Shown: positions 5,174 to 19,580, counted from the stretch's first letter. The stretch is DNA of 64,000 bases from Nitrospirota bacterium (GCA_016180645.1 JACPAV010000002.1:1-64000); one strand, 5' to 3'. Numbers and translations are program-made. The notes: generated by a model not told the origin, from the letters alone.

Positions 5174-6607
5174 TCAGGACTTCGGTTTCTGAAACACAGA
5201 GCCGCCGAGAATTTCCCTGTACACTTCGACTTCGGCGGCGTTTTTCAGAAGGATCGCTTCCGGCCCTTCCCCAAAGGCCTCCACCTCCGCACGCATTCCA
5301 TCCATCAGCGTGGCACAGGCGGCCAGGAACGGTGCCGCGTAGGAATGCGAGGCCGTCCCCCTGAGCTTCCGCCATCCCTCGATCGCTTCATCCACCTTTC
5401 CGACCAGATAGGGTAGCAGCGGAAGGAGGGCCGCAGCCAAGGGCCCGTATTTCTCCGATCGGGTCCCTTCCGAAAGCAATCGGCACGCCGTGGCGATGCG
5501 CCGTCCGAAGGCCGGGTCCCCCATCGAGGGAGCCTGCCACCGCCACACAAGGGCCTGCCGCAACAGGCCGCGGCCTAGAAGGAATTTGTGCTCCGGGCGG
5601 TTTCTCACCGGCAACCCCCTTCGCTCAATCAGATCCTGAAGGGCCGGGGCAATCATCTCCGCACGCGCCTCGGGTGTGTGCTGTTCAACCACGCGCCGCC
5701 ATCCGCGATAGGCAATCGCCAATCGTTCCTCTCCGTGCCGGAGATACCGTTCAATCCGATCCATGGCGTCGGCCGCGTCGGCATGCCGGTAGGCGACGAA
5801 ATCCTCTCCTTCTTCAAACAACGCGCGGACGGAGGGTGCCGGCGAATCGCACAGCAGCATCGCGCCGCACCCCATGGCCTCGAAGACCCGGAAATTGGGG
5901 GCATCGACGACGGATTCAGAGCTCTGCCTCTGCGCCGGCGGAGGCGCAGTTTCATTGATCACGATTTTCGAAGAAGGATAGACGGATTCGAACTCCCCCG
6001 CGCCCACATGCAGGCGATACCGGGTACCCACCTTCGAGAGCAGCTCTTGGAAGAACCGGTGGCGCTCCGGGTGCAGGCGGACGTCCCAATTCCCGACGAA
6101 TGCGACGTCGATGGGGCGTTCACGCCCCGGATCAAACGAGGAGACCCGCTCGCGGGCGCCTTTGTAGTACAAGGGACAATAGGCGACATCGTTCGTCGAT
6201 CCCCTCCGAATGAAATATTCCACGGAGCCCTGGGTATCCAAGTAGACACGGTCGAACACGTGCGAGAAGTCCCATGCCCAGGAATTGAGATGGAAATGCG
6301 TGTCGTGGAAATAGGCCACGGAGGGGATCCCCAAGTGGTCGAGATCAAGGAGCGAATCGCAGAGGGCCCACCCGTGGAGGAAGAAAGCCACGGGGCGATC
6401 CTGCCCCTTCCCCACGGACTCCAGGATGGAGGGCAGATGATAGTTGGCCAGGGTGGCCGGGGCGGCCTGAATCTGGAGGTAGGCGATTCGATAGAACTTT
6501 TCCAGCGCGCGGGAAAGATCGTCCGGCCAGAAAGCCCAAAGGAGTACGGGCTTGGAAGCGGGCCTGTGGGCGGCTGACGAGGTCAAGTCGTTCCCATTGA
6601 CCCCCAA
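5174..6607 (-). CDS. glycosyltransferase, CgeB-like (GT-B fold)
   Basis: 477 residues. The central part resembles CgeB/DUF3880-type glycosyltransferases: an N-terminal half with SVAYFHDTHFHLNSWAWDF, a DVAFVGNWD motif beginning the C-terminal Rossmann domain, and the donor-site signature NFRVFEAMGCGAMLLCD (about residues 233-249), typical of GT-B enzymes using nucleotide sugars. The last 130 residues form a helical extension without recognised motifs. The start lies 3 bp after the FHA gene stop codon, so translation is probably coupled. It is the last gene of the minus-strand cluster that includes the PGGCGG secreted proteins. Modification of those Thr/Pro-rich proteins would be a plausible role but is inference only. 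Acceptor and sugar are unknown. Confidence 0.75.
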   Translation of the reverse strand: MGVNGNDLTSSAAHRPASKPVLLWAFWPDDLSRALEKFYRIAYLQIQAAPATLANYHLPSILESVGKGQDRPVAFFLHGWALCDSLLDLDHLGIPSVAYFHDTHFHLNSWAWDFSHVFDRVYLDTQGSVEYFIRRGSTNDVAYCPLYYKGARERVSSFDPGRERPIDVAFVGNWDVRLHPERHRFFQELLSKVGTRYRLHVGAGEFESVYPSSKIVINETAPPPAQRQSSESVVDAPNFRVFEAMGCGAMLLCDSPAPSVRALFEEGEDFVAYRHADAADAMDRIERYLRHGEERLAIAYRGWRRVVEQHTPEARAEMIAPALQDLIERRGLPVRNRPEHKFLLGRGLLRQALVWRWQAPSMGDPAFGRRIATACRLLSEGTRSEKYGPLAAALLPLLPYLVGKVDEAIEGWRKLRGTASHSYAAPFLAACATLMDGMRAEVEAFGEGPEAILLKNAAEVEVYREILGGSVFQKPKS

Positions 6608-6610
6608 GCC

Positions 6611-7183
6611 CTACACGACCGGGTCCACGTCCATCAGGCGGGCGGGCGGACCGGCCGGAGGGGCCTTCGTCTCCTGGCAGGCTTGGAATAGACCCTTCGG
6701 GGTGAAGAAAGCAAAATGGGTATCGGGGCCGAGTGACACCATGTCGCCGTCCGTCAGGGGCTTCTGTTCCCGAGGGGCGAGCCGCTTCCCGTTCAAGAAC
6801 GTTCCATTGGTTGAGGTCATCTCGACGAGATTGGCCGTCCCCGCCGCAGGACCCGCCAGGAGATACGCGTGATGTTTGGAAATCGTACTGGCCGCAATCG
6901 GGAGGTCGCAATCCTCTCCCCGTCCCACAAACACGCGGTCGCCCGCAATGAACGCCCCGGTTTCCTTGCGAACCACCTTGAAGACTTCGCATTTCGGATC
7001 GGGACGGAAGGTCGAACGAGATACGCCCAAGCTCGCCCGCTCTTGGTATGCGGTGCGGGCGGCCAACTTCGAAGCCACCACTTCGCGCGGCACTCTCACA
7101 AGAAACGGGTGCTTGAACTCGGCAAGCACCTGCTCCTCGGACTTTCCCGTCAGCGCTTGTTTGTAGGTTGCCAGTGTATCCAT
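6611..7183 (-). CDS. FHA-domain protein
   Basis: 190 residues, start preceded by GGGAGG. A forkhead-associated domain occupies about residues 70-165, with the hallmark VGRGEDCDLPI, the phosphothreonine-binding S..H pair in STISKHHAYLL and STNGTFLNGKRL. FHA domains bind phosphothreonine peptides, which fits the large Ser/Thr kinase encoded about 7 kb away. The N-terminal 65 residues are charged and unassigned (LVRVPREVVASKLAART). No signal peptide is present, so it is cytoplasmic. The gene lies between secreted protein gene 1 (30 bp) and the glycosyltransferase (3 bp). Confidence 0.85.
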   Translation of the reverse strand: MDTLATYKQALTGKSEEQVLAEFKHPFLVRVPREVVASKLAARTAYQERASLGVSRSTFRPDPKCEVFKVVRKETGAFIAGDRVFVGRGEDCDLPIAASTISKHHAYLLAGPAAGTANLVEMTSTNGTFLNGKRLAPREQKPLTDGDMVSLGPDTHFAFFTPKGLFQACQETKAPPAGPPARLMDVDPVV

Positions 7184-7213
7184 GGGCCTCCCGATCCGTG
7201 TTCCGTTACCAGA

Positions 7214-8959
7214 CTACTTGACCTCCTTCAAGCCCACGAGGGTGTAGCCGACGCTCAACGTGGATGAGGCAGACGCGCATCCGGACTCGAGGCTGCCAGG
7301 ATTTCCTGAGAGGGACCATCCCGATCCACTGGCTCCACCTGCATCGGCACAGAGCACTTTTGCCGTGCCGGCGGTTCCCACGGCGCTCAGTCTACTGAAC
7401 CCCGAGATGATGGCGACTTTGTTGTACGCCTGAAAATTGAGCTTTCCGTCCGGATCCGCCCCGATGTAAAAGAATTGAATGTTGTTGTTGGTGGACACAT
7501 TGACGTCTGTCGCCTTGGTCACCATCGGCCTTGCATCCACCGCGTAGATCGTTTTGGCGGCGTCCTCTTTGATGGAGTAGAGCTCGAGGCGGAAATCCAT
7601 CTTGGGGAGGTTGAGGACGTAGGTTTCCCGCAGGACCGTCTCGCTCACTTTGTGGGGCACCGGCGCGAGGCGGGCGGGCGTGGGCGTGATCGCGTTTCCG
7701 TTCTCGTCCCTGACCGGCTCCTGGCCATCGGCCGGAGTCTGCCCATACAGAAAGCCCTCGGGGTTCAAGACCAGGTCCAAGACAAACTGCACTTTGTTTT
7801 CCAAATCGGCCTGGGTGATCGTGAATGCCTTCTGGAATCTGAAGACACCCTTGGTGAGGCTCTGTCGAACGATCATCTCCTGGGAAGATCCCGGTGTGCC
7901 CGCCAGATTGTCCGGCTGCGTAAAGAAAACCGAACTCGTCCCCGTGCCGCTCTGGAGGATCACCGGGCCATCCTTGGTCACCAGCGTTCGACCATCGTTC
8001 ATGGTGAGTTCGGCGTTGATCTTGGCGGCGGGCGCGTCTTCGACGATCGCCCAGACGTAGTCGCCGGCCACACAGGATGAGCCGGTCCCGGAACCTTCTG
8101 TTCGACCATCGTCCCGAGTTCCTTCCGTTGATCCCGTTGTCTCCTTCGGGCAGTCGCCGGGGCAGACGAAAGGGTACTCGCCTTTGTCCTTCTCGCACAC
8201 CCCGTTGTTGTTGCAGTATCCGCTCTGAGTCTGCCTTTCGGGGGCCGCAGTTGTGGTGCAGGGCGCCAGCTCGGTCTTGATGTTCTGAAGCCTATTTAGA
8301 TCATTGGGGTCGATGACGCTCACGAACTTCGCGTCGTCCGCCTTGGCGTTGTCACCGTTGTAGTTCTCCCAGTAACTCAGGCCCTTGGAGGTTTGTTCGG
8401 GATCCATATGCAGGATGATGCAGTTCCTGAATGCGTTGTTGATTTGGTGCCCCGACCCTCCCACCGTGGCCCCCTCCTCCTTGCAGATCAGAATGCGCAG
8501 AACGTAGGCCCGCAGGGATTTGATCTGGGCTCCGAGGGACTGGCCCTGCACCTTGGAACTTGAGGATTGCCGCCGCGGCAACGCCTCTTCGAAGGCTCCA
8601 GACCCGACCCAATCCCAGAAGCGGGGGGGCGCGCCGGGAAGAGGCTCGAGAGTCGCGTTACGGACATTGGTTGTGATGAGGGCCTTGGTCGGGATGACGA
8701 CCGGTTCGGGCGGTTTCGTCACCGGCGGTTCAGGCGGCTTCACGACGGGAGGCGGCTCGGTCTTGGTTGTATCGGTTTGCGTGGTCGTTGAGGTCGGTTG
8801 CGTAGTCGGCGCGGCCGGCTCCTCAGCTGGCGCGCTTGGCGTTGTGGTCTGCGTCGTTTTCGGCTCGCTTCCTCCACAACCGCCGGGCGATGCAGCCACA
8901 TTGAAGACAAACAAGGTAACCAATATTCCGATGGGAGCAATCCAACGCTTGGTGCTCAT
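7214..8959 (-). CDS. secreted PGGCGG-family protein 1 (unknown function)
   Basis: 581 residues with an AAGGAAGGA ribosome site. A hydrophobic N-terminal segment ends in VAASPGGCGGSEP, followed by a Thr/Pro/Lys linker of about 65 residues, then NATLEPLPGAPPR, a motif shared with the next two genes. Around residues 235-265 is a Cys cluster (CNNNGVCEKDKGEYPFVCPG) resembling the C-x-C-GE-CPxDC motif of many exported proteins. The C-terminal half aligns over its full length with the protein at 10370-12070 (for example AKTIYAVDARPMVTK versus AKTIYAVDLRVIATK, and closing YTLVGLKEVK versus YTLVTMKEIK). Exported either by signal peptidase I at the AAS site or as an atypical lipoprotein (PGGC lacks the Leu of a lipobox). 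I do not recognise any function. Confidence 0.8.
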   Translation of the reverse strand: MSTKRWIAPIGILVTLFVFNVAASPGGCGGSEPKTTQTTTPSAPAEEPAAPTTQPTSTTTQTDTTKTEPPPVVKPPEPPVTKPPEPVVIPTKALITTNVRNATLEPLPGAPPRFWDWVGSGAFEEALPRRQSSSSKVQGQSLGAQIKSLRAYVLRILICKEEGATVGGSGHQINNAFRNCIILHMDPEQTSKGLSYWENYNGDNAKADDAKFVSVIDPNDLNRLQNIKTELAPCTTTAAPERQTQSGYCNNNGVCEKDKGEYPFVCPGDCPKETTGSTEGTRDDGRTEGSGTGSSCVAGDYVWAIVEDAPAAKINAELTMNDGRTLVTKDGPVILQSGTGTSSVFFTQPDNLAGTPGSSQEMIVRQSLTKGVFRFQKAFTITQADLENKVQFVLDLVLNPEGFLYGQTPADGQEPVRDENGNAITPTPARLAPVPHKVSETVLRETYVLNLPKMDFRLELYSIKEDAAKTIYAVDARPMVTKATDVNVSTNNNIQFFYIGADPDGKLNFQAYNKVAIISGFSRLSAVGTAGTAKVLCADAGGASGSGWSLSGNPGSLESGCASASSTLSVGYTLVGLKEVK

Positions 8960-8980
8960 GGTGTCCTTCCTTTCGGTCGG

Positions 8981-10366
8981 CTAAGGCTGGCTGTCAGCCA
9001 GCGAGACTTCGTTGAAGGTCAGTGGAGAAAGACTTTCAAACCAGACATCCCCTGCGGTGAAGCGCGGTCCGGCCGGATGCATGAGAAAGTCCAGATCCTC
9101 TGCTTTCATGACGCGAAGGCCGGAATTGCCGGAGCAGTCCCCTGAGCCGGAGCAGGAGGCGACGGCGGAATAGTTCGAAGGGTTGAGGAGCAAGTCGGCA
9201 GTACCCGAATTGATGTCCTTGTACCCGATACCCTTGAAGCCGGCCGCCGGATTTCCCCGGATGGTGTGAAGGAGAGTGGAATCTCCGATCTTGTGCTTGT
9301 ACAGATTCCCCACCGCGCCTTGGTAATCCGTCACCTGACTGAAGACTCCATCTGAATTGACGGTTCCGGCAATCCGAACCCTCGCATGTCGGTTGTAGGC
9401 GGTTTGGACGTTTTCGTCCGGTTGGGGATTGTCGTAGTCCTGATTCTTCTGTTCATATCGAAGAACGCCCATCTGGGTATCAAGATGAAACGTGTAGGCG
9501 TCATTCTTGTCGCTCTCCTTGATGAATCTACCCGCACCCACTGCAAGCCCTTCTCCGTCTTTGAGCAGGAGCTGAAGGTTCAGTGATTCGCCCTGGATGA
9601 CGGTAACAATCTGAAGGCTTCGATCCCAGGCTCCCGTCTTGCCAAACGCAGAGGGTGAGGAGGCGGTGATGGTGACCTGGATCGGCTGGGCGGGAAAATT
9701 GGGGACAAAATTATCCGGGAAGCATTCGGAGTCGGCGGGGTTGACGGTGGCCGTTCGCGATGAGCCATTGTAGGTCAGGTCGGGCACGGCCTTTTCCGCA
9801 AGGCACACGAAGCCGCGGGTTAGGAGCATCCGGCCCAGGGGACTTTCCGGCCCCGTGCCGGGTTGCTTTAGAACGCAATAAAACAGCGCCGGCGCGTATT
9901 TCGGGTCAAGGTCCGGGAGCGGAATTCCCGAAGCATCCAGCGGCGATGCGCCATCCGTGCACGTCGGTTCGAGTTGGACCGGATATCGGAACATGCCGGG
10001 CAACGAGGCGCGAGGGGGCGCGCCCGGGAGGGGCTCCAGCGAGGCGCCACGCGCGGTGCTTCCTCCGATCAGACTCGACCCGCCGGCGGTCATGGAGGTC
10101 GTCACCGCGTTCGTCACTTTCAAGAGCACGTCGCTCGCCTTCGAGGGCTTTGGGGGCGCTACGGAGGTCGTCCCGGTAGTCGGGGTCGTTGGAGTCGTCG
10201 CTTCGGGAATAGCGGCTTGATCGCTGCCGGTGGTCGCCGTGGACGTGCCGGTCGCCGTGGCGGGCGAGCTCTCCTTCTCGCTTCCCCCGCATCCGCCGGG
10301 TCCTGCTGCAACCCCAATGGCGAAAACGCCGGACAGGAGAAGGCCTGTTGTGAAAGTTTTTCGCAT
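8981..10366 (-). CDS. secreted PGGCGG-family protein 2 (unknown function)
   Basis: 461 residues. The N terminus repeats the family plan: hydrophobic segment, VAAGPGGCGGSEKES, Ala/Thr/Pro linker, then ASLEPLPGAPPR at about residue 110. After that it diverges from the two neighbours. The rest contains paired cysteines but no CPxDC motif, a region with VRIAGTVNSDGVFSQVTDYQG, and a Cys/Ser/Gly-rich stretch (CSGSGDCSGNSG) near residue 405. It begins 3 bp after the stop of protein 3 and ends 21 bp before the start of protein 1, so the three are almost certainly one transcript. Function unknown. It may be a distant paralogue or a protein sharing only the export module. Confidence 0.78.
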   Translation of the reverse strand: MRKTFTTGLLLSGVFAIGVAAGPGGCGGSEKESSPATATGTSTATTGSDQAAIPEATTPTTPTTGTTSVAPPKPSKASDVLLKVTNAVTTSMTAGGSSLIGGSTARGASLEPLPGAPPRASLPGMFRYPVQLEPTCTDGASPLDASGIPLPDLDPKYAPALFYCVLKQPGTGPESPLGRMLLTRGFVCLAEKAVPDLTYNGSSRTATVNPADSECFPDNFVPNFPAQPIQVTITASSPSAFGKTGAWDRSLQIVTVIQGESLNLQLLLKDGEGLAVGAGRFIKESDKNDAYTFHLDTQMGVLRYEQKNQDYDNPQPDENVQTAYNRHARVRIAGTVNSDGVFSQVTDYQGAVGNLYKHKIGDSTLLHTIRGNPAAGFKGIGYKDINSGTADLLLNPSNYSAVASCSGSGDCSGNSGLRVMKAEDLDFLMHPAGPRFTAGDVWFESLSPLTFNEVSLADSQP

Positions 10367-10369
10367 AAC

Positions 10370-12070
10370 CTATTTGATCTCCTTCATGGTAACCAATGTG
10401 TAGCTGGTATCTATCGTTGACGCCAGTGAAGCGCAACCGGCCGCGGGAGTGCCGCCGACACCGGCCAGATTCCATCCTGTACCTTCTCCGGAGGCGGTCA
10501 AGTCACTACAAATAACTTTGGCCTTCCCTGTCGCCCCTTCGGCTGCCAGCCTCGTGAATCCGGAGATGATCGGGGTTTTCAGAGGGTTCTGGAAATCGAT
10601 CTTATCATCCGCGTTCGGCACCACATAGGAGATGGCCGTGTCGGCCAGTGCGGCGGTGGTATCCTTTGTGGCGATCACTCGAAGATCCACGGCATAGATG
10701 GTCTTCGCCGGGTCATCCTTGACAGAGTACAAATCCAACCTGGCATTGTAGGTCGGTAGCGTGAACAGATAGCTCTCAAGAACAGTGTTTGAGCTACCTC
10801 GGCGCGGCACCGGGCCCACACGTAGGTTCGAGACAAAAATGCTGTTGCCGCTCAGGTCTTGCATCTGGGCCAAACCGAAGGGGGGGTTGCGGTAGCCTTG
10901 GAGAAGGCCGGCGGGGTTGAATATAATGTCGAGTGTAAACTGGGCTTGGCTGTCTAGGTCCGCCTGTGAAATCGTGAACGGCGACTGGAATTTGAAGATG
11001 CCTCCCACGTAGGAGGACACGGCGACTTCCTGTGAGGACCCGGAGGTTCCTTCAAGGTTCTCCACCGTAACGATCGTCCATGGAGTTCCTGCTCCAGCTT
11101 CACGAAGCGTTACCGGGCCTTCCCTGCTCACCAGTGTGCGCCCATCATTCAGGATCAACTCCCCGTTGACCTTTACGAACGGGGCTACCTGGAACACACC
11201 GTACACATACGACTTGGCCGCCGCACCCGCCGCCGATGTCGTCCCTCCCACTGAACAATCCTGGGGACAGTTGGCTTCATTTTCCCCGAGTGGCGCTTCG
11301 CATGTGCGGTTGAGATTGCAGGGGCCCGGCTGAGGTCCACTGATCAATGTCCCCATGTTCAGCCCACTGTTTAGGTCCACCGGGATGTTCTGCAACTTGG
11401 CGGCGAGATCCTTCGCATCCATGAGGTTGACAAAATTCCCCGAGTCGGCCTTTGCCTGATCGACCGTGTAGGAGCTGCTTGCGGCGAGTGAACCGCCGGG
11501 TTCCGGGGCCTTGTAGAGTTGGAAACAATTCGTGCTTTCCTGAAACAAATTCCCTCCGCCTCCGGGGCCGTTGAGTTGGTAGCCCTGCTCATTGCAAATG
11601 GCGACGCGAAGGAGATAAACCTTGAAAGATTTCAGTTGGGACGCCGTGGACTGACCGACGATCTGGGCTGAAGTCATCTGGAGCCGAATCGGGCTCTCAA
11701 GAAAGAACCCCGGCAGTTTCGAGAGTCTTTCGGAAGCCCGAAACGAGCCTCCGGCGTCACCGGTACCGAATAGGATCGTTCGGGGTGGCGCTCCGGGAAG
11801 CGGCTCCAGCGTGGCATTCCGAACATTAAGCGTCAGTGTCGCCTTCTTGGCTGAGATTGCAGGCGGCTGGTCCGTGGTGGAGTCGGATGTCCCACCCGGC
11901 AATTGCCCGGGCTTCGTTGGATCCGTCGGTTGGGTGGTGGGCTGAGTCGCCGTGGCGGGCGTGCTCTCTTTCTCTCCACCGCCGCAGCCGCCGGGGGAGG
12001 CGGACGCGCCGAAGGCCAGCGTGAGGGCCAGCCCGGCCGTGACCATGAGGTGCTTTTGGTTCTTCATCAT
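10370..12070 (-). CDS. secreted PGGCGG-family protein 3 (unknown function)
   Basis: 566 residues, ribosome site GGAG before ATGATG. It has a hydrophobic leader ending GASASPGGCGGGEKES, a Thr/Pro linker, NATLEPLPGAPPR (about residue 90), a segment shared with protein 1 (SQLKSFKVYLLRVAICNEQG versus AQIKSLRAYVLRILICKEEG), a Cys motif CNLNRTCEAPLGENEANCPQ around residue 250, then ILNDGRTLVSREGPVTL and a C-terminal half homologous to protein 1. Repeated ITQADL and IISGF elements suggest beta-rich modules. It is the first of the three paralogues in transcription order. Exported, probably periplasmic or surface exposed. Function unknown. Confidence 0.8.
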   Translation of the reverse strand: MMKNQKHLMVTAGLALTLAFGASASPGGCGGGEKESTPATATQPTTQPTDPTKPGQLPGGTSDSTTDQPPAISAKKATLTLNVRNATLEPLPGAPPRTILFGTGDAGGSFRASERLSKLPGFFLESPIRLQMTSAQIVGQSTASQLKSFKVYLLRVAICNEQGYQLNGPGGGGNLFQESTNCFQLYKAPEPGGSLAASSSYTVDQAKADSGNFVNLMDAKDLAAKLQNIPVDLNSGLNMGTLISGPQPGPCNLNRTCEAPLGENEANCPQDCSVGGTTSAAGAAAKSYVYGVFQVAPFVKVNGELILNDGRTLVSREGPVTLREAGAGTPWTIVTVENLEGTSGSSQEVAVSSYVGGIFKFQSPFTISQADLDSQAQFTLDIIFNPAGLLQGYRNPPFGLAQMQDLSGNSIFVSNLRVGPVPRRGSSNTVLESYLFTLPTYNARLDLYSVKDDPAKTIYAVDLRVIATKDTTAALADTAISYVVPNADDKIDFQNPLKTPIISGFTRLAAEGATGKAKVICSDLTASGEGTGWNLAGVGGTPAAGCASLASTIDTSYTLVTMKEIK

Positions 12071-12085
12071 AGTGCTCCGATCCCG

Positions 12086-12262
12086 TTATGGAATGTTGAA
12101 GATGAGGATGCGATTGGCGGTATTGTCAGCGGCGTAAAGGCGGCCGTTGGCGCCGTCGTATGCCAGCCCCTTGACCCCGCCGCAAGCGAAGACAAGCAGC
12201 GCCAGCGCCGGAGGCCGCAACAGCCGGGAAACCCTTCGACCGATTCCAATATTAGTTCTCAT
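12086..12262 (-). CDS. small lipoprotein fused to a single NHL-type beta-propeller blade (likely deletion remnant)
   Basis: 58 residues. The ATG at 12262 has an excellent ribosome site (CAGGAGGGAGAC), which is why it is chosen over longer frames. The protein is a lipoprotein signal (LALLVFACGG) joined almost directly to one NHL/SMP-30-like repeat (VKGLAYDGANGRLYAAD, then RILIFNIP) and stops. NHL proteins normally carry several blades, so the middle has probably been lost by an internal deletion. It lies 15 bp upstream of secreted protein gene 3 and may be co-transcribed. It could be a pseudogene or a leader-like small lipoprotein. Confidence 0.6.
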   Translation of the reverse strand: MRTNIGIGRRVSRLLRPPALALLVFACGGVKGLAYDGANGRLYAADNTANRILIFNIP

Positions 12263-12385
12263 GTCTCCCTCCTGAGCACATTGTGACACCTGAACTCTGG
12301 GGCTGATGGATCTCGTCCGAATTGAGGCTACAGCCGGTTTGCCCTCCACATTCCGTCCGAGCTTGACGCGCATGGTACCCACCTT

Positions 12386-12646
12386 TCACTCCGGCTTCAA
12401 TGGATGATGGCGCTCAGCATTTGATCCTGCCCCGAGAACGGGGTCTGTTCCCCGGCCACGTGATGCGTCCTGCCGCCAAGAGGGTTCCGCCGGCAGGAAC
12501 GCCCTTCGAATCCCGACCGGAGAAGGGGACGTTTGGACGACCCCGCCTGATCGGTTGCCGCTCGCCGCTGCACATCCGGTTGAGAAGGCGGTGAGCAATC
12601 CCATGAGCACGAGCAGGAACGCCGAGATCCACGTGGCGGGACGCAT
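12386..12646 (-). CDS. small putative lipoprotein
   Basis: 86 residues beginning MRPATWISAFLL, with GAGGTG eight bases before the ATG. The leader LLVLMGLLTAFSTGC is a plausible lipoprotein signal with the Cys at about residue 24. The remainder is low complexity, Arg/Pro/Ser rich, with no recognised domain. The gene starts 10 bp after the stop codon of the histidine kinase on the same strand and is probably co-transcribed with it. Confidence 0.5.
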   Translation of the reverse strand: MRPATWISAFLLVLMGLLTAFSTGCAAASGNRSGGVVQTSPSPVGIRRAFLPAEPSWRQDASRGRGTDPVLGAGSNAERHHPLKPE

Positions 12647-12656
12647 GGTTTTCACC

Positions 12657-14072
12657 TCAGCACGCCATCCCATCGCGCTCGCGGGTCTTCTCGGCGGAAC
12701 CTGCGCCATTCGCTCGCGTTCGGGCATCAAGAGCTTCTCGGACCTTCAGCGCCAAGCCGTCGAGTGTGAAAGGTTTCTGGATGAAATCGGCACCTGGGGT
12801 GCGGTTGCCGTTCGAGGCCATACGGCGCTCCGTGTAGCCAGACATGTAGAGCACCCGGATCTCCGGAAGTTTTTCGCGCAATCGCTGAACCACTTCGATG
12901 CCGCCCATGCGGGGCATGACCATGTCCGTGATCAAGAGATGGACCGGCCCGTTGTGCGATTCCAGCGCCCTGAAGGCCTCGATTCCGTCGGCCGCCTCGA
13001 TAACGGTGTAGCCGGTGGCCGTGAGGAATCGCGCCGCGAGATCTCGGACCATTCGTTCGTCCTCCACGAGGAGGATGGTTTCCGTGGCCGATTCTGCCGG
13101 CTTCTGTTTCGCCTCCACCCCGCACGGCGCGCCCCCCGCCGACGCGCGAGGGAAAAACACTTTGAAGGTCGCCCCGCGATCCGGCTCACTGTAAACGGAC
13201 ACGTGCCCGCCGCACTGCTTTGCAATTCCATACACGGTGGCCAGTCCCAAACCGGTGCCCTCCCCCTTCGCCTTGGTGGTGAAGAACGGTTCGAACACCC
13301 GCGAGAGGGTCTCACCATCCATCCCATGCCCCGTATCGCTCACCGCCAGCATGACATGGAGTCCCGGCTTCGCCTCGGGATGCTGAGACACGTAGGCTGA
13401 GTCGAACTCGACGTTCTGGGTCTCGATCGAGATGCGGCCTCCCATCGGCATCGCATCGCGCGCATTCACCGCGAGGTTCATGAGAACCTGCTCCACCTGG
13501 CTGGGGTCTGCATGGATCTTTCCGATGCCGGCCCCCAAGCCGACCTCAATGGCGATGTCCTCCCCTACAAGGCTCCGGAGAAGTTTGCTCATGTTCTCGA
13601 CGATGACGTTGAGATCGATGACCTCGGCGTGGACCGACTGTTGGCGGCTGAAGGTGAGAAGCTGGCGCGTGAGGGCCGCAGCGCGTTCGGCAGATCGGAC
13701 GATCTGCTGAACTTCAAGCCGAACCGGATCGTCCGACGGTAGACGGCGCATGACGAACTGGCCGTGTCCTAGGATGACCGTCAGGAGATTGTTGAAGTCG
13801 TGTGCGATCCCGCCCGCCAGCCGCCCGATCGCCTCCATCTTTTGGGATTGCCGGCGTCGTTTCTCATATTGATTCTTCTCGCCGTCCCCAGAGCAACGCG
13901 GCGCGGGGCGGTGCCGCTCTTCACGCACGTTCCTTTCACCGTCCCCGCAGCGGAGCGGAGCGGGACGTCTCCTCTCCTCCAGTTTCGATCCCATGCTTCC
14001 ACCCTTGTCCGCCGCGGCGGACTTGCGGGTGAAATCACCTTTCGACGTTTCCGTGTTTCTGAACGTGGCCAT
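12657..14072 (-). CDS. hybrid histidine kinase without a sensor domain (HisKA-HATPase-REC)
   Basis: 471 residues, ribosome site GAGGGGGT. Residues about 79-145 carry the phosphoacceptor helix with the H box LAGGIAHDFNNLLTVILGH (His91). The ATPase domain follows with N box NLAVNARDAMP, G1 SDTGHGMD, F box FEPFFTTK and G2 GEGTGLGLATV. A receiver domain at about 329-450 has LLVEDE and the phosphoacceptor Asp in LLITDMVMPRMGG, plus the conserved Lys in FIQKPF. No membrane segment or input domain precedes the kinase. Instead the N-terminal 75 residues are basic and contain a tandem 19-residue repeat encoded by a palindromic DNA element. It is the first gene of the minus-strand cluster leading to the PGGCGG proteins and is divergent from the large kinase/sigma54 activator. 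Phosphotransfer partner unknown. Confidence 0.9.
   Translation of the reverse strand: MATFRNTETSKGDFTRKSAAADKGGSMGSKLEERRRPAPLRCGDGERNVREERHRPAPRCSGDGEKNQYEKRRRQSQKMEAIGRLAGGIAHDFNNLLTVILGHGQFVMRRLPSDDPVRLEVQQIVRSAERAAALTRQLLTFSRQQSVHAEVIDLNVIVENMSKLLRSLVGEDIAIEVGLGAGIGKIHADPSQVEQVLMNLAVNARDAMPMGGRISIETQNVEFDSAYVSQHPEAKPGLHVMLAVSDTGHGMDGETLSRVFEPFFTTKAKGEGTGLGLATVYGIAKQCGGHVSVYSEPDRGATFKVFFPRASAGGAPCGVEAKQKPAESATETILLVEDERMVRDLAARFLTATGYTVIEAADGIEAFRALESHNGPVHLLITDMVMPRMGGIEVVQRLREKLPEIRVLYMSGYTERRMASNGNRTPGADFIQKPFTLDGLALKVREALDARTRANGAGSAEKTRERDGMAC
13863..13976 (-). repeat. tandem GTCCCC/GGAG palindromic element inside the histidine kinase gene
   Basis: Two consecutive 57-bp units encode ERRRPAPLRCGDGE-RNVRE and ERHRPAPRCSGDGE-KNQYE. 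Each contains a dyad of the type CGTCCC...GGGACG around a GCGGAGCGGAGCGGG core (plus-strand sense). Related elements lie at 41224-41260, 46443-46502 and 51497-51533. Confidence 0.65.
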
Positions 14073-14152: not shown

Positions 14153-14225
14153 ACGAACACGGCGACCACCGGTTTCCGCGTTACGCGTGGTTGTTTGTCA
14201 CGTCACGTGGCGATTTGCACCGTGC

Positions 14226-17200
14226 ATGAATTCCGATATACTCCTGCGCGTGCCCGACAAAATCCTGGGAAGGCTTGAAATCCTCCAGACTCTGGGTGAG
14301 GGCCAGTTCGGCCGCGTTCACAGGGCGTTCGATCACGTACTGAACAAGGAAGTCGCCGTGAAGGAGTTCTTCAGAATGGACCTGGAGAAGGCCGACACCT
14401 CCTTCCAAACAGAGATGAAGGTTCTCGCCCACCTCCACCATCCCGCCCTGCTCAAGGTGTACGACCTGCTGGTGGACGATACGACCGGTTCGCACTTCCT
14501 CACGGAAGAACTGATCGCCGGGCGAGATGCGTCGAAGGTTCTCAAGGAGGCCGATTGGGAAATTCGATGGCAGCTCTTCGCCCAGCTCCTCCAGGGTCTC
14601 GAATACCTTCATCAGCGCGGAATCATTCATCTCGATATCAAGCCGCCCAACGTGCTCGTCAGTGCCCCCGCGCACGAAGGAGGCATTCCCCAGGCCCGAA
14701 TCCTCGACTTCGGGGTCGCCGACGAAATCGGAAAGTTCGACAAGAAGGGACTGATCGCCGGGACGTTTCCGTACATGGCGCCCGAAGTGGTCCGCGGTGA
14801 TCACATCGACGGGCGGGCCGATCTCTACTCACTCGGCATGATGTTCTTCGAAGTCTTCAAAAGGCCTTCTCCTTTGCCCGATGGCCCGGCCGGCGAATGG
14901 CCCGGCGGCGGCGAAGCGGGAGGGACGGTGGCCGCGGACGCGAGCGATATCGCCCCAAGCACGGAAGCTCTCATTCAGGAGACGCTTAACCGAACCGCAC
15001 CGCTTCGGACGGATTTCCAAGACGACGTACCCGAAAGCTTTCGAGAAGTCCTGATCACCCTACTCGATCCCAACCCGCGGCGCCGGTTCTGGTCCGCCAA
15101 CGATGTCATCCGCCGCCTTAACGCGCGGGTGGGACGCCGCTTCCTCCTCGAACCGGGACGTCTCCGCATTCCGGACAAGGCCACGGCCGTGCTCTCCGGA
15201 CGAGCGGAGGAATTCAAGGAGGTCGTCGGTTGGATGGAGCAGTTCCAGAAGACGGACGCCACACTATTCTTGGGGGTCATCGAGGGCCGCGCTCAGAGCG
15301 GCAAGTCGGCCGTCCTCGAGGAGGTTCGTCGCTGGGCGGAACTCGCCGATCGATTCGTCGTAAGCCTTCGCGGACCCTCCGAGGGACCTGCCGAACTTTT
15401 CATGAGACTGATGCACGATTCGGACGTCAAGGACCTCGAACCTCTTGCCCCATTCCTCAAGGCCCTTCTCCCGGCCCGTTTCGGGAGCGCGGAAGATCCT
15501 CCGGAACTGGAAACCCGCCCCGAGCTCCTCAAAGCGAGGGTATTGGAGAAGCATGCCGAGGCTCTCGCTCTGCTCCTGAAGAAACGACCGGTCATTCTGC
15601 TCGTGGACGACGTGGATCAGAAGAAGGATCTGGCGGAACTTCTGACGTTCCTCGGACGGGTGCTCCACGAGGCCGCAACCGCATCGGCACCCCCGGGCAA
15701 GATGAAAACGTTCCTTCTGATGACCGCTTCCGCCTCCGAGGGTTTGATGGTCGATCCGAAGCCTTCGCACACCCTGACGCTGAAAAACTGGTCGAAGCCT
15801 ACGGCATTGGCGGTGCTGAACACTCTCCTGGCGGTTGAGCATGTGCCGGAAAAGCTCCTTCAGAAATTAATGGAGAAGACCGAGGGAATGCCCGGGCTCC
15901 TCGTGGAATACGTCCGGCTCCTCGTGAATGAGGTCCTGAAGCCGGGGGAAGACATCGAGGGCCAGCTCGATGCCCTCGATTGGCGGAATCTCGACGCCAG
16001 CCTCGACCTGGCGGCGTGGTATCAGGGAGACGTCGAACGACTCGACAACCAGGAAAGATCGATCCTCCGCTGGCTGAGTCTCACTTCATTGGAATTGGCC
16101 GCCGAAGACCTTGAACTTCTGGATCCTCCCCTCGTGGGACAGGCCGCAGCCGCCATTCGGAAGCTCCAGGATCTTGGCTGGGTCCGGCAGGGACCCAGCG
16201 GCTACCAACTTTCGAGCGAACTGAGACGGGAGGCCTCGTATCGGGAGATTCCACCCGCCGACGAATTTCGAATGCGTCTCCTCCTTGGAGAGAAATGGGA
16301 GGACCTCTCGTTGTCCCGGTTCGACAGACAGGGCGAGTCGGAGGGCGTCGGGCTCGAACGGGCGCACCAGTTCTTCCTGGGCGGCGACTCCGCCCGGGCC
16401 TTCGCTCTCGCCAAGCCCGAGATCCAACTCATGCTCAAGCTCAACCGGCCCGAACCCGTCGTGCAATTCCTGAGTTCACACGACATCCCAGCCCAGGCGT
16501 TGCCGGAAGAACCCCGCCGCCAGTATCGGAAATTCCTCGCGCAGGCCTTCCTGCAAACCGCGAACTTCCCGGGAGCCACCGAAGGGTACGGCGAGCTGCT
16601 TTCCGAGTCGCAGGAGCCGAGGGAGCGGGCGGAGCTGGCCGTCGCCTTGGCGCGGGCTCACCGGTACGGCGGACAGCTTAAGGAAGCGGCGGAGACGATC
16701 CGCCAGGCGCGGGCGCAGATGGATGAGACTTCCCCCTTTGTACCCAACCTGGACTCTCTGCTGGCTGACATCCTCGTGGAGCACGCCCGTTATGACGAGG
16801 CGGCCGGTATTGCCCAGCCGTACCTCACGGGCGGGCGCCCCTGTCACGTCGAGGAAGCCCTCGCCTTCCGACATGCCGTGGCCAAGGTCCATTTCTATCA
16901 TGGCCGCATAGAGGAGGCGATCGAACTCTCGAAGCTGAACGTGACGGAAAGTCAGCGTTCGGGACGGCCCAGCCGGCATGCCCTCGCCCTCAACATGCTG
17001 GGCGCGGCCTATCTCAAACAGGGAAACATCGCCGAGGCCACGCCTCTCTTCCACTCCTGCTCCGCCATTAGCGCCGAAATCGGCGATCTCCGAACGATGG
17101 CGCTGGCGTGCGTCAACCTCGGGATGTGCTACCACGAAACCGGCGATCTCGAAGCGTCGATCAAGTACCACGAGAAGGCCGCCGCGATGTTCCGACGGAT

Positions 17201-19580
17201 TTCCGACCGGTCCTACGAGGCCCGGCTCCTGTACAACCTGGGTCAACTCCGGCGGGAGGCCGGCGATTTTGAGGCCGCGGAAGACGTGCTGGCGGATGCC
17301 ACGCGGCTGACCCAGGAGCTCCACATGGCCCACATCCAGGCCAAAATCCGGCTGGAGAGATCGGATTGTTTCCGCGCCCGCGGCCTGTTCGCTCGGGCCG
17401 CCGAGGAATGCGCGTCGGCCGAAACGATCTTCCGGGATCTCAATATCCCGGCGGAAATTCTGGCCGCGCGACTCAAGCGCATCGAGATCACGATCGATGC
17501 CGGGGAACCGGGCGCGGAATCCGCCGCGTCAACCGAGTTGGCTGAATGCGAGAAGGACCCTCTCCTGCACGAGTCGCCGATCCTCGACATCAAGGCGCTC
17601 TACGTCAAGGGACGCCTGGTTTCCAAAAGAAGCCCCGCCCAGGCCCGCAAACTTCTCGAACAAGCCATGACCAAGTTGGAGGCCATGCCCGGACCGGACC
17701 CAGAGCTCAAGCAGCGGATCAGCGATGCGTTCCGCCACGCCACGCCGGGATCGGAATCTCCCGCGGAGGAACATCGGCCGATCGAACCCATGAAGGAGGA
17801 ACGCGAAATGCCCGAGAGGACACAAACACTGCCGGTCGCATCCGCTCCGCCCCCACGCGACTACCCGGCGACCGTCGTTGCAGCCACCCCTGCCGCATCC
17901 GATCTCCCGCGCCCGGCCGCCCCGCTCCGGCGGCGAAGCGATATCGAAAGCTTGTCGCTGCTGGAGGTCGTGCGGAAGATCAATTCGCCGCTGGATGTGC
18001 AAGACGTCCTCGTTGAGATCGTCGATTCCCTCGTCGGCTTCATGGATGCGGAACGGGGATTTCTGCTCCTCGTGGAGGAAGACAAGCTTGCTGTGCGGGT
18101 CGCCCGGTCGAAGGAGAAGAAAGACGTTCGCGATCCGGCCGAAAGTTTCAGCCTCAGCATCGCGCAGGAATCTTTGGATCAGGCCAAGCCCATTATCACC
18201 CTCGATGCGGCCAAAGACCCACGCTTCAAGGAAGCCGCCAGCGTCGGTCAGCTCCAGCTCAAGTCGGCGGTCTCGGTGCCCCTCTTCATGAAAGGCGAGG
18301 CGCTTGGAGCGATTTATCTCGACACTCGGCTCAAGACCGGCCGGTTCACGGAGCAGGACGTGCCGATGCTCTCCGCCCTTGCGGAGCTGGCCGCCCTGGC
18401 GATCTTCCGCGCCCAGCTCATTGCTCAGAACGTGCGCGACCAGCGCGAACTCCGCCGAAGTTTGAAAGAGACCAAGGAGACGAAGCAAAAAGTCGATCAG
18501 TTGAATACTGAGTTGGAGAATTCGAACAGGAAGCTTCAGGAGACGGTCCAGCACCAGGAGGAGGAACTGACCAGCGCCCAACGCCGTCTCCAGGACCTCG
18601 TTCACGATGAACAGCCAAAATACAAGTACGAGCGCATCGTGGGGAACAGTCCGGGCATGCGGCAGGTTCTGCTTCAGCTCGACCGGGCCGTGGAGATGCG
18701 CGTTCCCGTGCTCCTCGTCGGAAAGAGCGGCACAGGGAAGGAACTCATGGCCCGCGCCATCCATTACAATTCGCCGTCGAAGGACCAGCCTTTCGTGGCG
18801 GTCAATTGCACGGCGATTCCGCAGGAGCTTGTGGAATCCGAACTCTTCGGCCACGTCCGGGGCGCCTTTACGGGAGCCGACCGCGACAAGCCGGGGTTGT
18901 TCGAAACGGCTGAGGGCGGCGCCCTGTTTCTGGATGAGATCGGCGATGTCCCTCTCGCGATTCAGGCAAAACTCTTGCGTGTGCTCCAAGAAAGCACAGT
19001 CAGACGGGTCGGTGGCAACACCGAGAAGAAGGTGGATGTGCGCGTCATCGCCGCCACGAATGTCGACCTCAAAGATCTGGTCGCTCAGAAGAAGTTCCGC
19101 GAGGATTTGTACTACCGACTCCGAGTGTTCCGCATCAGCATCCCTCCGCTGCGCGAAAGGCGGGAGGACATTCAGGGCCTCACCGAATATTTCTTGAAGG
19201 AAATCGCCCGCCAGTACCGCGTGCCGGCCAAAACGCTGTCGAAAGCGGCGCTGCGCTTGCTGGTCGGTTACGACTGGCCGGGGAATGTTCGAGAATTGGA
19301 GAACACACTGCGAAGCGCCTTCGTCCTGAGCAAGAACAGGGAGATACAGGTCGAGGATCTTCGCCAGATGGAGGAGCTTTTCGGCGAGGGAGGCCCGGCG
19401 CCCGTTCGGGAAGGGCTCGGCCTTCGCGAAGCCCTCCTCGAATTTCAGAAGAACAGGATTGAGAATGCGCTTCGGCGACACGATGGAAGCGTCACCGAGG
19501 CCGCCAAGGAACTCCAGGTCGACCGCTCCCAGCTCTCCCACTGGATCCGCAAGTTCAAACTGGCTGACAAAAGCAACTAG
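14226..19580 (+). CDS. Ser/Thr protein kinase-ATPase-TPR-GAF-sigma54 activator fusion
   Basis: About 1784 residues from ATG 14226 (a GTG at 14187 is possible; neither has a strong ribosome site). Domains in order (residue numbers from GTG 14187): a Hanks-type kinase (about 28-320) with GEGQFGRV, the ATP Lys in [18 protein letters not shown] (HLD rather than HRD) and DFGVAD; an STAND-like ATPase with Walker A GRAQSGKS (about 367) and Walker [11 protein letters not shown]; a long TPR array (about 690-1180); a GAF domain (about 1255-1410); a coiled coil; a sigma54 AAA+ domain (about 1480-1720) with Walker A GKSGTGKE and an intact GAFTGA loop; and a Fis-type HTH ([20 protein letters not shown]). 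All catalytic signatures look intact, so it should couple phosphorylation and small-molecule sensing to sigma54-dependent transcription. FHA proteins encoded nearby are candidate readers. Confidence 0.92.

Follow-up and report, generated by a model that had tools for sequence, protein, structure and literature searches.

A Cys-Gly-Gly sequence followed by a disordered spacer of Ser, Thr and Pro is the usual appearance of a lipoprotein N-terminus in bacteria. At the other end of the protein, lipidation of the MYXO-CTERM cysteine is presumed to occur although no lipobox is defined there (PMC11980579). Moreover, in the studied Maf system the glycosylation of flagellin occurs in the cytoplasm (PMC4065374). 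In our study we analyzed a stretch of 64,000 nucleotides from a Nitrospirota bacterium (GCA_016180645.1 JACPAV010000002.1:1-64000), here called the window, in which three successive genes encode exported proteins with a common N-terminal module. We conclude that this module is a small lineage-specific portable tag on two orphan body families; a new export pathway is not supported on this evidence.

The three genes together span 7214-12070 on the minus strand, and all coordinates of the gene run given below refer to this strand. Their products start with the same elements in the same order, namely a basic and hydrophobic Sec-type leader, the sequence [SG]PGGCGGxE, a linker rich in Thr, Ser and Pro, and the sequence LEPLPGAPPR. 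This architecture had been described in the initial annotation, and we found PGGCGG and LEPLPGAPPR to be exact in all three genes. Gene 1 (P0005, 566 amino acids, 10370..12070) encodes the leader, ASPGGCGGGE, the Thr/Pro linker, NVRNATLEPLPGAPPR and a C-terminal part without known relatives. Motif searches placed PGGCGG at residues 26-31 (11978..11995) and LEPLPGAPPR at residues 88-97 (11780..11809), and the linker between them has 56 amino acids (11810..11977), the first 45 of which are 49% Thr, Ser and Pro compared to 22% in the C-terminal part. A Cys motif, CNLNRTCEAPLGENEANCPQDC, was read in the translation at residues 251-272 (11255..11320). Gene 2 (P0004, 461 amino acids, 8981..10366) has the same N-terminal module in front of a different C-terminal family; PGGCGG lies at residues 23-28 (10283..10300), LEPLPGAPPR at residues 110-119 (10010..10039), both located by motif search, and the Thr/Ser/Pro-rich linker, defined by composition, has 81 amino acids (10040..10282). 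In gene 3 (P0003, 581 amino acids, 7214..8959) the same searches found PGGCGG at residues 25-30 (8870..8887) and LEPLPGAPPR at residues 104-113 (8621..8650), separated by a Thr/Pro-rich linker of 73 amino acids (8651..8869; 62% Thr, Ser and Pro in the first 45). Gene 3 is a paralog of gene 1 with 42% identity along the whole length (544 aligned residues). The body profiles of genes 1 and 3 showed no homology to that of gene 2 (hhalign probability 0.2%), which agrees with the earlier description of gene 2 as sharing only the N-terminal module.

A fourth bearer was found in the same genome on contig C17 (L003:1504-3243). Its product is 38% identical to that of gene 2 over 456 aligned residues, has both PGGCGG and LEPLPGAPPR, and has a linker interrupted by a Big_2 immunoglobulin (Ig)-like domain (40.7 bits in Pfam, cut-off 22.8). 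Across the four members the first 45 linker residues consist of 44-62% Thr, Ser and Pro, compared to 21-22% in the bodies. The C17 gene follows a radical SAM gene and has an RCC1-repeat gene in its vicinity, and neither an FHA nor a glycosyltransferase gene adjoins it. Therefore, the module does not require an FHA/glycosyltransferase pair next to it. Since two unrelated C-terminal families and a fourth gene elsewhere bear it, the N-terminal module is portable. The proposal of a portable sorting or anchoring signal thus held up in its first half, and its second half enters the more tentative reading given below.

In the whole 4.7-Mb genome the DNA pattern for PGGCGG was matched seven times, four times behind leaders and three times in chance frames. 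AxPGGCGG gave four matches in this genome, all of them real, compared to none for the reversed control. Similarly, LEPLPGAPP with one mismatch allowed had exactly four matches, all within these four bearers, and none in the control or in the sister genus. As leader and linker features, both motifs occur in exactly these four genes genome-wide. In 385 other genomes AxPGGCGG was matched 43 times, and at the 29 outside loci that we inspected it never stood behind a leader. The motif is thus not restricted to the three window genes, as the C17 gene has it as well, and no bearer was found outside this genome. A new export signature, as initially suggested, is not supported by these results, because all four leaders are of the ordinary Sec type and have a consensus site for signal peptidase I, and the motif does not follow a leader at the inspected outside loci.

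Both motifs are identical in all six pairs of the four genes, with codon differences at 3-4 of 6 positions for PGGCGG and 5-8 of 10 for LEPLPGAPPR. In both paralog pairs the longest identical run has LEPLPGAPPR as its core, and (AS)PGGCGG is second or joint second. The invariance of the amino acids with differing codons argues that the motifs are kept by selection at the protein level. One could also assume a lineage-specific duplication, with the motifs owing their conservation only to shared ancestry or gene conversion and serving no special function. Consistent with this, the members are all in one genome, three of them in tandem, and no relative was found elsewhere. However, the bodies are either unrelated or retain just 38-42% identity, and the codon differences exclude recent copying and indicate selection; we consider this explanation very improbable.

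The bodies of the three window proteins matched no Pfam or NCBIfam family above the cut-off, and the C17 gene matched only Big_2, in its linker. A sequence search of the PDB returned weak matches only, with one chance match for the family of genes 1 and 3, and Ig-like-insert as well as chance matches for the family of gene 2 and the C17 gene. For the former family no outside relatives were found in 60 genomes, with no positive control for empty sets. For the latter, outside matches in 386 genomes were confined to the region of the Ig-like insert, and this search had no positive control either. Profiles of the C-terminal parts found no relatives in 300, 195 and 397 genomes, and a plasmid search for the bodies found none, in both cases with no positive control. 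In genome contigs, only a Cys-loop motif around CNLNRTCEAPLGENEANCPQDC was found, and motifs like it occur in proteins of archaeal, candidate phyla radiation and deltaproteobacterial metagenome-assembled genomes. The lineage is sparse, as one other genome among those searched belongs to the same family and none is listed between family and domain level. The bodies represent two protein families, neither with a detected relative, and very few members of the lineage have been sequenced.

According to the gene calls, the three genes belong to five closely packed minus-strand genes in the order P0005-P0004-P0003-P0002-P0001. The intergenic gaps are 3 bp (base pairs; P0005/P0004), 21 bp (P0004/P0003), 30 bp (P0003/P0002) and 3 bp (P0002/P0001), so that the tight spacing of 3-30 bp noted initially does tie the three genes to the FHA protein and the glycosyltransferase. 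P0002 (190 amino acids, 6611..7183), which lies 30 bp past gene 3, is an FHA-domain protein (PF00498, 55.9 bits, cut-off 20.7). P0001 (477 amino acids, 5174..6607) has no leader and belongs to the Pfam family Glyco_trans_1_2 (PF13524, 85.2 bits, cut-off 25). Scans for promoters and terminators showed no excess.

From these observations we infer that the four proteins are exported by Sec and stay attached to the envelope because their lone leader cysteine, set in an unusual lipobox, is lipidated, with glycosylation of the linker and a link to the FHA protein. Taken as a whole this reading is tentative, and we give it slightly less than an even chance. The leader would insert into the inner membrane in Sec export. 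The single cysteine of [SG]PGGCGGxE would be modified, most likely acylated in the manner of a lipoprotein despite Pro at -3, and would hold the protein in the envelope; the suggested destination is the outer membrane, given Gly at +2 and +3 and the absence of Asp. The Thr/Pro linker may serve as a flexible spacer, and RxA[TS]LEPLPGAPPR may be a short functional motif at the boundary between linker and body. The C-terminal bodies, with their even number of cysteines, would be displayed. Besides, the Thr-rich linker would probably be decorated by the cytoplasmic glycosyltransferase P0001, and through the FHA protein P0002 the system could be connected to phospho-threonine signalling.

The leader cysteine is found at residues 29, 26 and 28 in genes 1, 2 and 3 and at residue 27 in the C17 gene, in each case after the hydrophobic leader. 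This corresponds to a lipoprotein leader, defined as a basic n-region and a hydrophobic core with a cysteine following within about 15-40 residues. The non-leader cysteines are even in number in all four proteins (8, 6, 10 and 12), which leaves the leader cysteine as the odd one out and is compatible with a lipidated cysteine or an intermolecular disulfide. A lipobox census, which covered about 2.5 Mb of the 4.7-Mb genome, revealed loose lipoboxes such as ASPSC, LSPAC, ATPAC and LAPGC as well as SIPIGC, in which Pro is at -3. Among the leader proteins the census also turned up two, unrelated in function, in which [GS]CGGG precedes a low-complexity spacer. One is a lipase-like alpha/beta hydrolase (L060:3425-4396) whose sole cysteine is in a leader ending ASEGSCGGG, and the other is a protein of the Exo_endo_phos family (endonuclease/exonuclease/phosphatase; L134:3354-4406) with a leader ending ESGSCGGGGGGGGGG.

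Several points weigh against the proposed tether. PGGC does not follow the lipobox [LVI/A..][ASTVI][GAS]C, as Gly at -1 fits and Gly at -2 is tolerable, but Pro at -3 is outside the consensus; in the census Pro at this position was seen only in these four proteins, in SIPIGC and in two doubtful short open reading frames (ORFs). In all four genes a perfect site for signal peptidase I, of the type [AV]-x-A before [SG]P (ASA/SP, VAA/GP, VAA/SP and VAA/SP, as read from the sequences), lies 4 residues upstream of the cysteine, and a protein cut at this point would retain the cysteine as a free thiol. The argument from cysteine parity is weak, because four even counts arise by chance about once in sixteen and the canonical lipoproteins of this genome have 30 even and 26 odd counts. 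Moreover, glycosylation ahead of Sec export is rare, and AlphaFold models on two-row alignments were poor (mean pLDDT, the predicted local distance difference test score, of 32 and 38), so that structural support is absent.

The proteins could therefore be ordinary signal peptidase I substrates with [SG]PGGCGGxE as mature N-terminus, the thiol being engaged in an intermolecular disulfide, to form a dimer or to attach a partner, and carrying no lipid. This would agree with Ala or Val at -3 and Ala at -1 right before [SG]P in 4/4 leaders, with Pro at +2, and with the missing hydrophobic residue at -3 of the cysteine, and the odd cysteine also suits an intermolecular disulfide. Nevertheless, such processing alone leaves the Gly-Gly on both sides of the cysteine and the Thr/Pro spacer unexplained, and similar Cys-Gly-Gly leaders stand before other passengers in the same genome with poorer signal peptidase I sites. 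We regard this explanation as possible but rather doubtful. Judged from the sequences, lipidation appears somewhat more likely than signal peptidase I cleavage with a free thiol. If lipidation proves true, Pro-Gly-Gly-Cys can be acylated and is missed by prediction based on the lipobox.

Another explanation would be an N-terminal counterpart of MYXO-CTERM or GlyGly-CTERM, in which a Gly-rich cysteine near a membrane helix is handled by a dedicated acyltransferase or protease and not according to the lipobox rules of Lgt and LspA. Besides the presumed precedent of the MYXO-CTERM cysteine, this is suggested by C-terminal tails in the same genome that combine GGGGCT (three proteins) or CGC (one protein) with a membrane helix and Arg-Arg, and by one weak match to the MYXO-CTERM model (14.2 bits, below the cut-off of 15.85). 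However, a dedicated enzyme was not identified, the N-terminal tag is present in only four paralogs, and Lgt and LspA could suffice. The products of genes 1-3 also end without the helix and Arg tail of the tripartite C-terminal signal. We therefore consider such a counterpart quite unlikely. The proteins with poly-Gly-Cys (GGGGCT) or CGC, membrane helix and Arg-Arg tails are encoded at L130:9890-11236, L209:17106-18254, L210:10238-11536 and L060:12623-16360, and two of the four have metallophosphatase domains.

Regarding the glycosyltransferase, the nearest relatives of P0001 are one enzyme in this genome (G000:C3) and one in the sister genus (G001:C56). These two are mutually orthologous, 49% identical and each located among flagellin genes, and P0001 is 38% identical to them. 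In the tree P0001 is sister to these two enzymes (support 80/82), and the three belong to a group with strong support, which also includes a paralog on contig C33 about 4 kb from a flagellin gene. P0001 itself does not lie within a flagellin cluster. Since its nearest paralogs are inside flagellin clusters, P0001 plausibly modifies the Thr-rich linkers, as had been proposed initially; the kinship strengthens this idea, and the glycosylation itself stays conditional. As the Maf system glycosylates flagellin in the cytoplasm, P0001 would need to act on the linkers before the proteins are exported by Sec. If this is true, a flagellin-type transferase was recruited to Sec-exported proteins. A further-reaching variant would be an N-terminal tag dedicated to anchoring: acylation would take place on the Gly-embedded cysteine outside the lipobox rules, the flagellin-type enzyme would glycosylate the linker ahead of Sec export, and a partner would recognize LEPLPGAPPR and bring the protein to the cell surface; we hold this to be improbable. 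No similar operon was found in the sister genus around the inspected sites with relatives of P0001 and P0002. Glyco_trans_1_2 glycosyltransferases were seen inside or close to clusters of flagellin genes at G000:C3:226000-245000 (L084, with four Flagellin_N matches), G001:C56:33000-52000 (L083) and G000:C33:16000-35000 (L086).

Upstream of the gene run lies P0006 (12657..14072, minus strand), a soluble hybrid histidine kinase/receiver. The initial annotation placed it at the head of the cluster, a view that we could not maintain because 586 bp with two small ORFs separate it from gene 1. One of these ORFs (12086-12373, minus strand) ends LAYDGANGRLYAADNTANRILIFNIP, a sequence resembling the terminus of a large NHL-type lipoprotein of the same genome (L181:1119-6296), and is perhaps the remnant of a deleted gene. 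The other (12386-12646, minus strand), between the kinase and gene 1, begins MRPATWISAFLLVLMGLLTAFSTGCAA and has a classic lipoprotein leader. Divergent from the kinase, a plus-strand gene (14187-19580) encodes a protein of 1797 amino acids that combines Ser/Thr kinase, AAA, TPR, GAF, sigma-54 activator and Fis-type DNA-binding domains. On contig C17, an RCC1-repeat-like protein of 721 amino acids (L025:17631-19796) is encoded near the fourth PGGCGG gene and the radical SAM protein (L025:14220-15116) on its other side. An ORF of 154 amino acids after the C17 gene is probably no gene, and a 12-13-mer with the look of a regulatory site, common to the upstream regions of the kinase and the C17 gene, was at chance level.

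Compared to bacterial lipoproteins processed by Lgt and LspA, the four proteins have a similar basic and hydrophobic leader with the cysteine directly after it, small residues before and Gly-Gly after the cysteine, a disordered Ser/Thr/Pro spacer and an odd cysteine. They differ in that Pro replaces Leu, Val, Ile or Ala at -3 and that a perfect site for signal peptidase I precedes the cysteine by four residues. MYXO-CTERM and GlyGly-CTERM proteins, the substrates of myxosortase and rhombosortase, also show a short Gly/Cys signature by a membrane helix, basic residues on the cytoplasmic side and unrelated bearers within one genome. However, the module described here is N-terminal, has four bearers only and has no known partner protease. 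With the Glyco_trans_1_2 enzymes of flagellin clusters P0001 shares the family, and it groups with enzymes among flagellins in two genomes of the lineage, whereas P0001, whose activity is predicted, is 38% identical to those enzymes and adjoins Sec-exported proteins. As generally described, serine-rich repeat glycoproteins and O-glycosylated lipoproteins resemble our proteins in being exported, in their Ser/Thr-rich stretches and in a glycosyltransferase gene nearby. In contrast to these, the operon analyzed in our study has no accessory Sec genes and its linkers are short, where the known proteins have long repeats.

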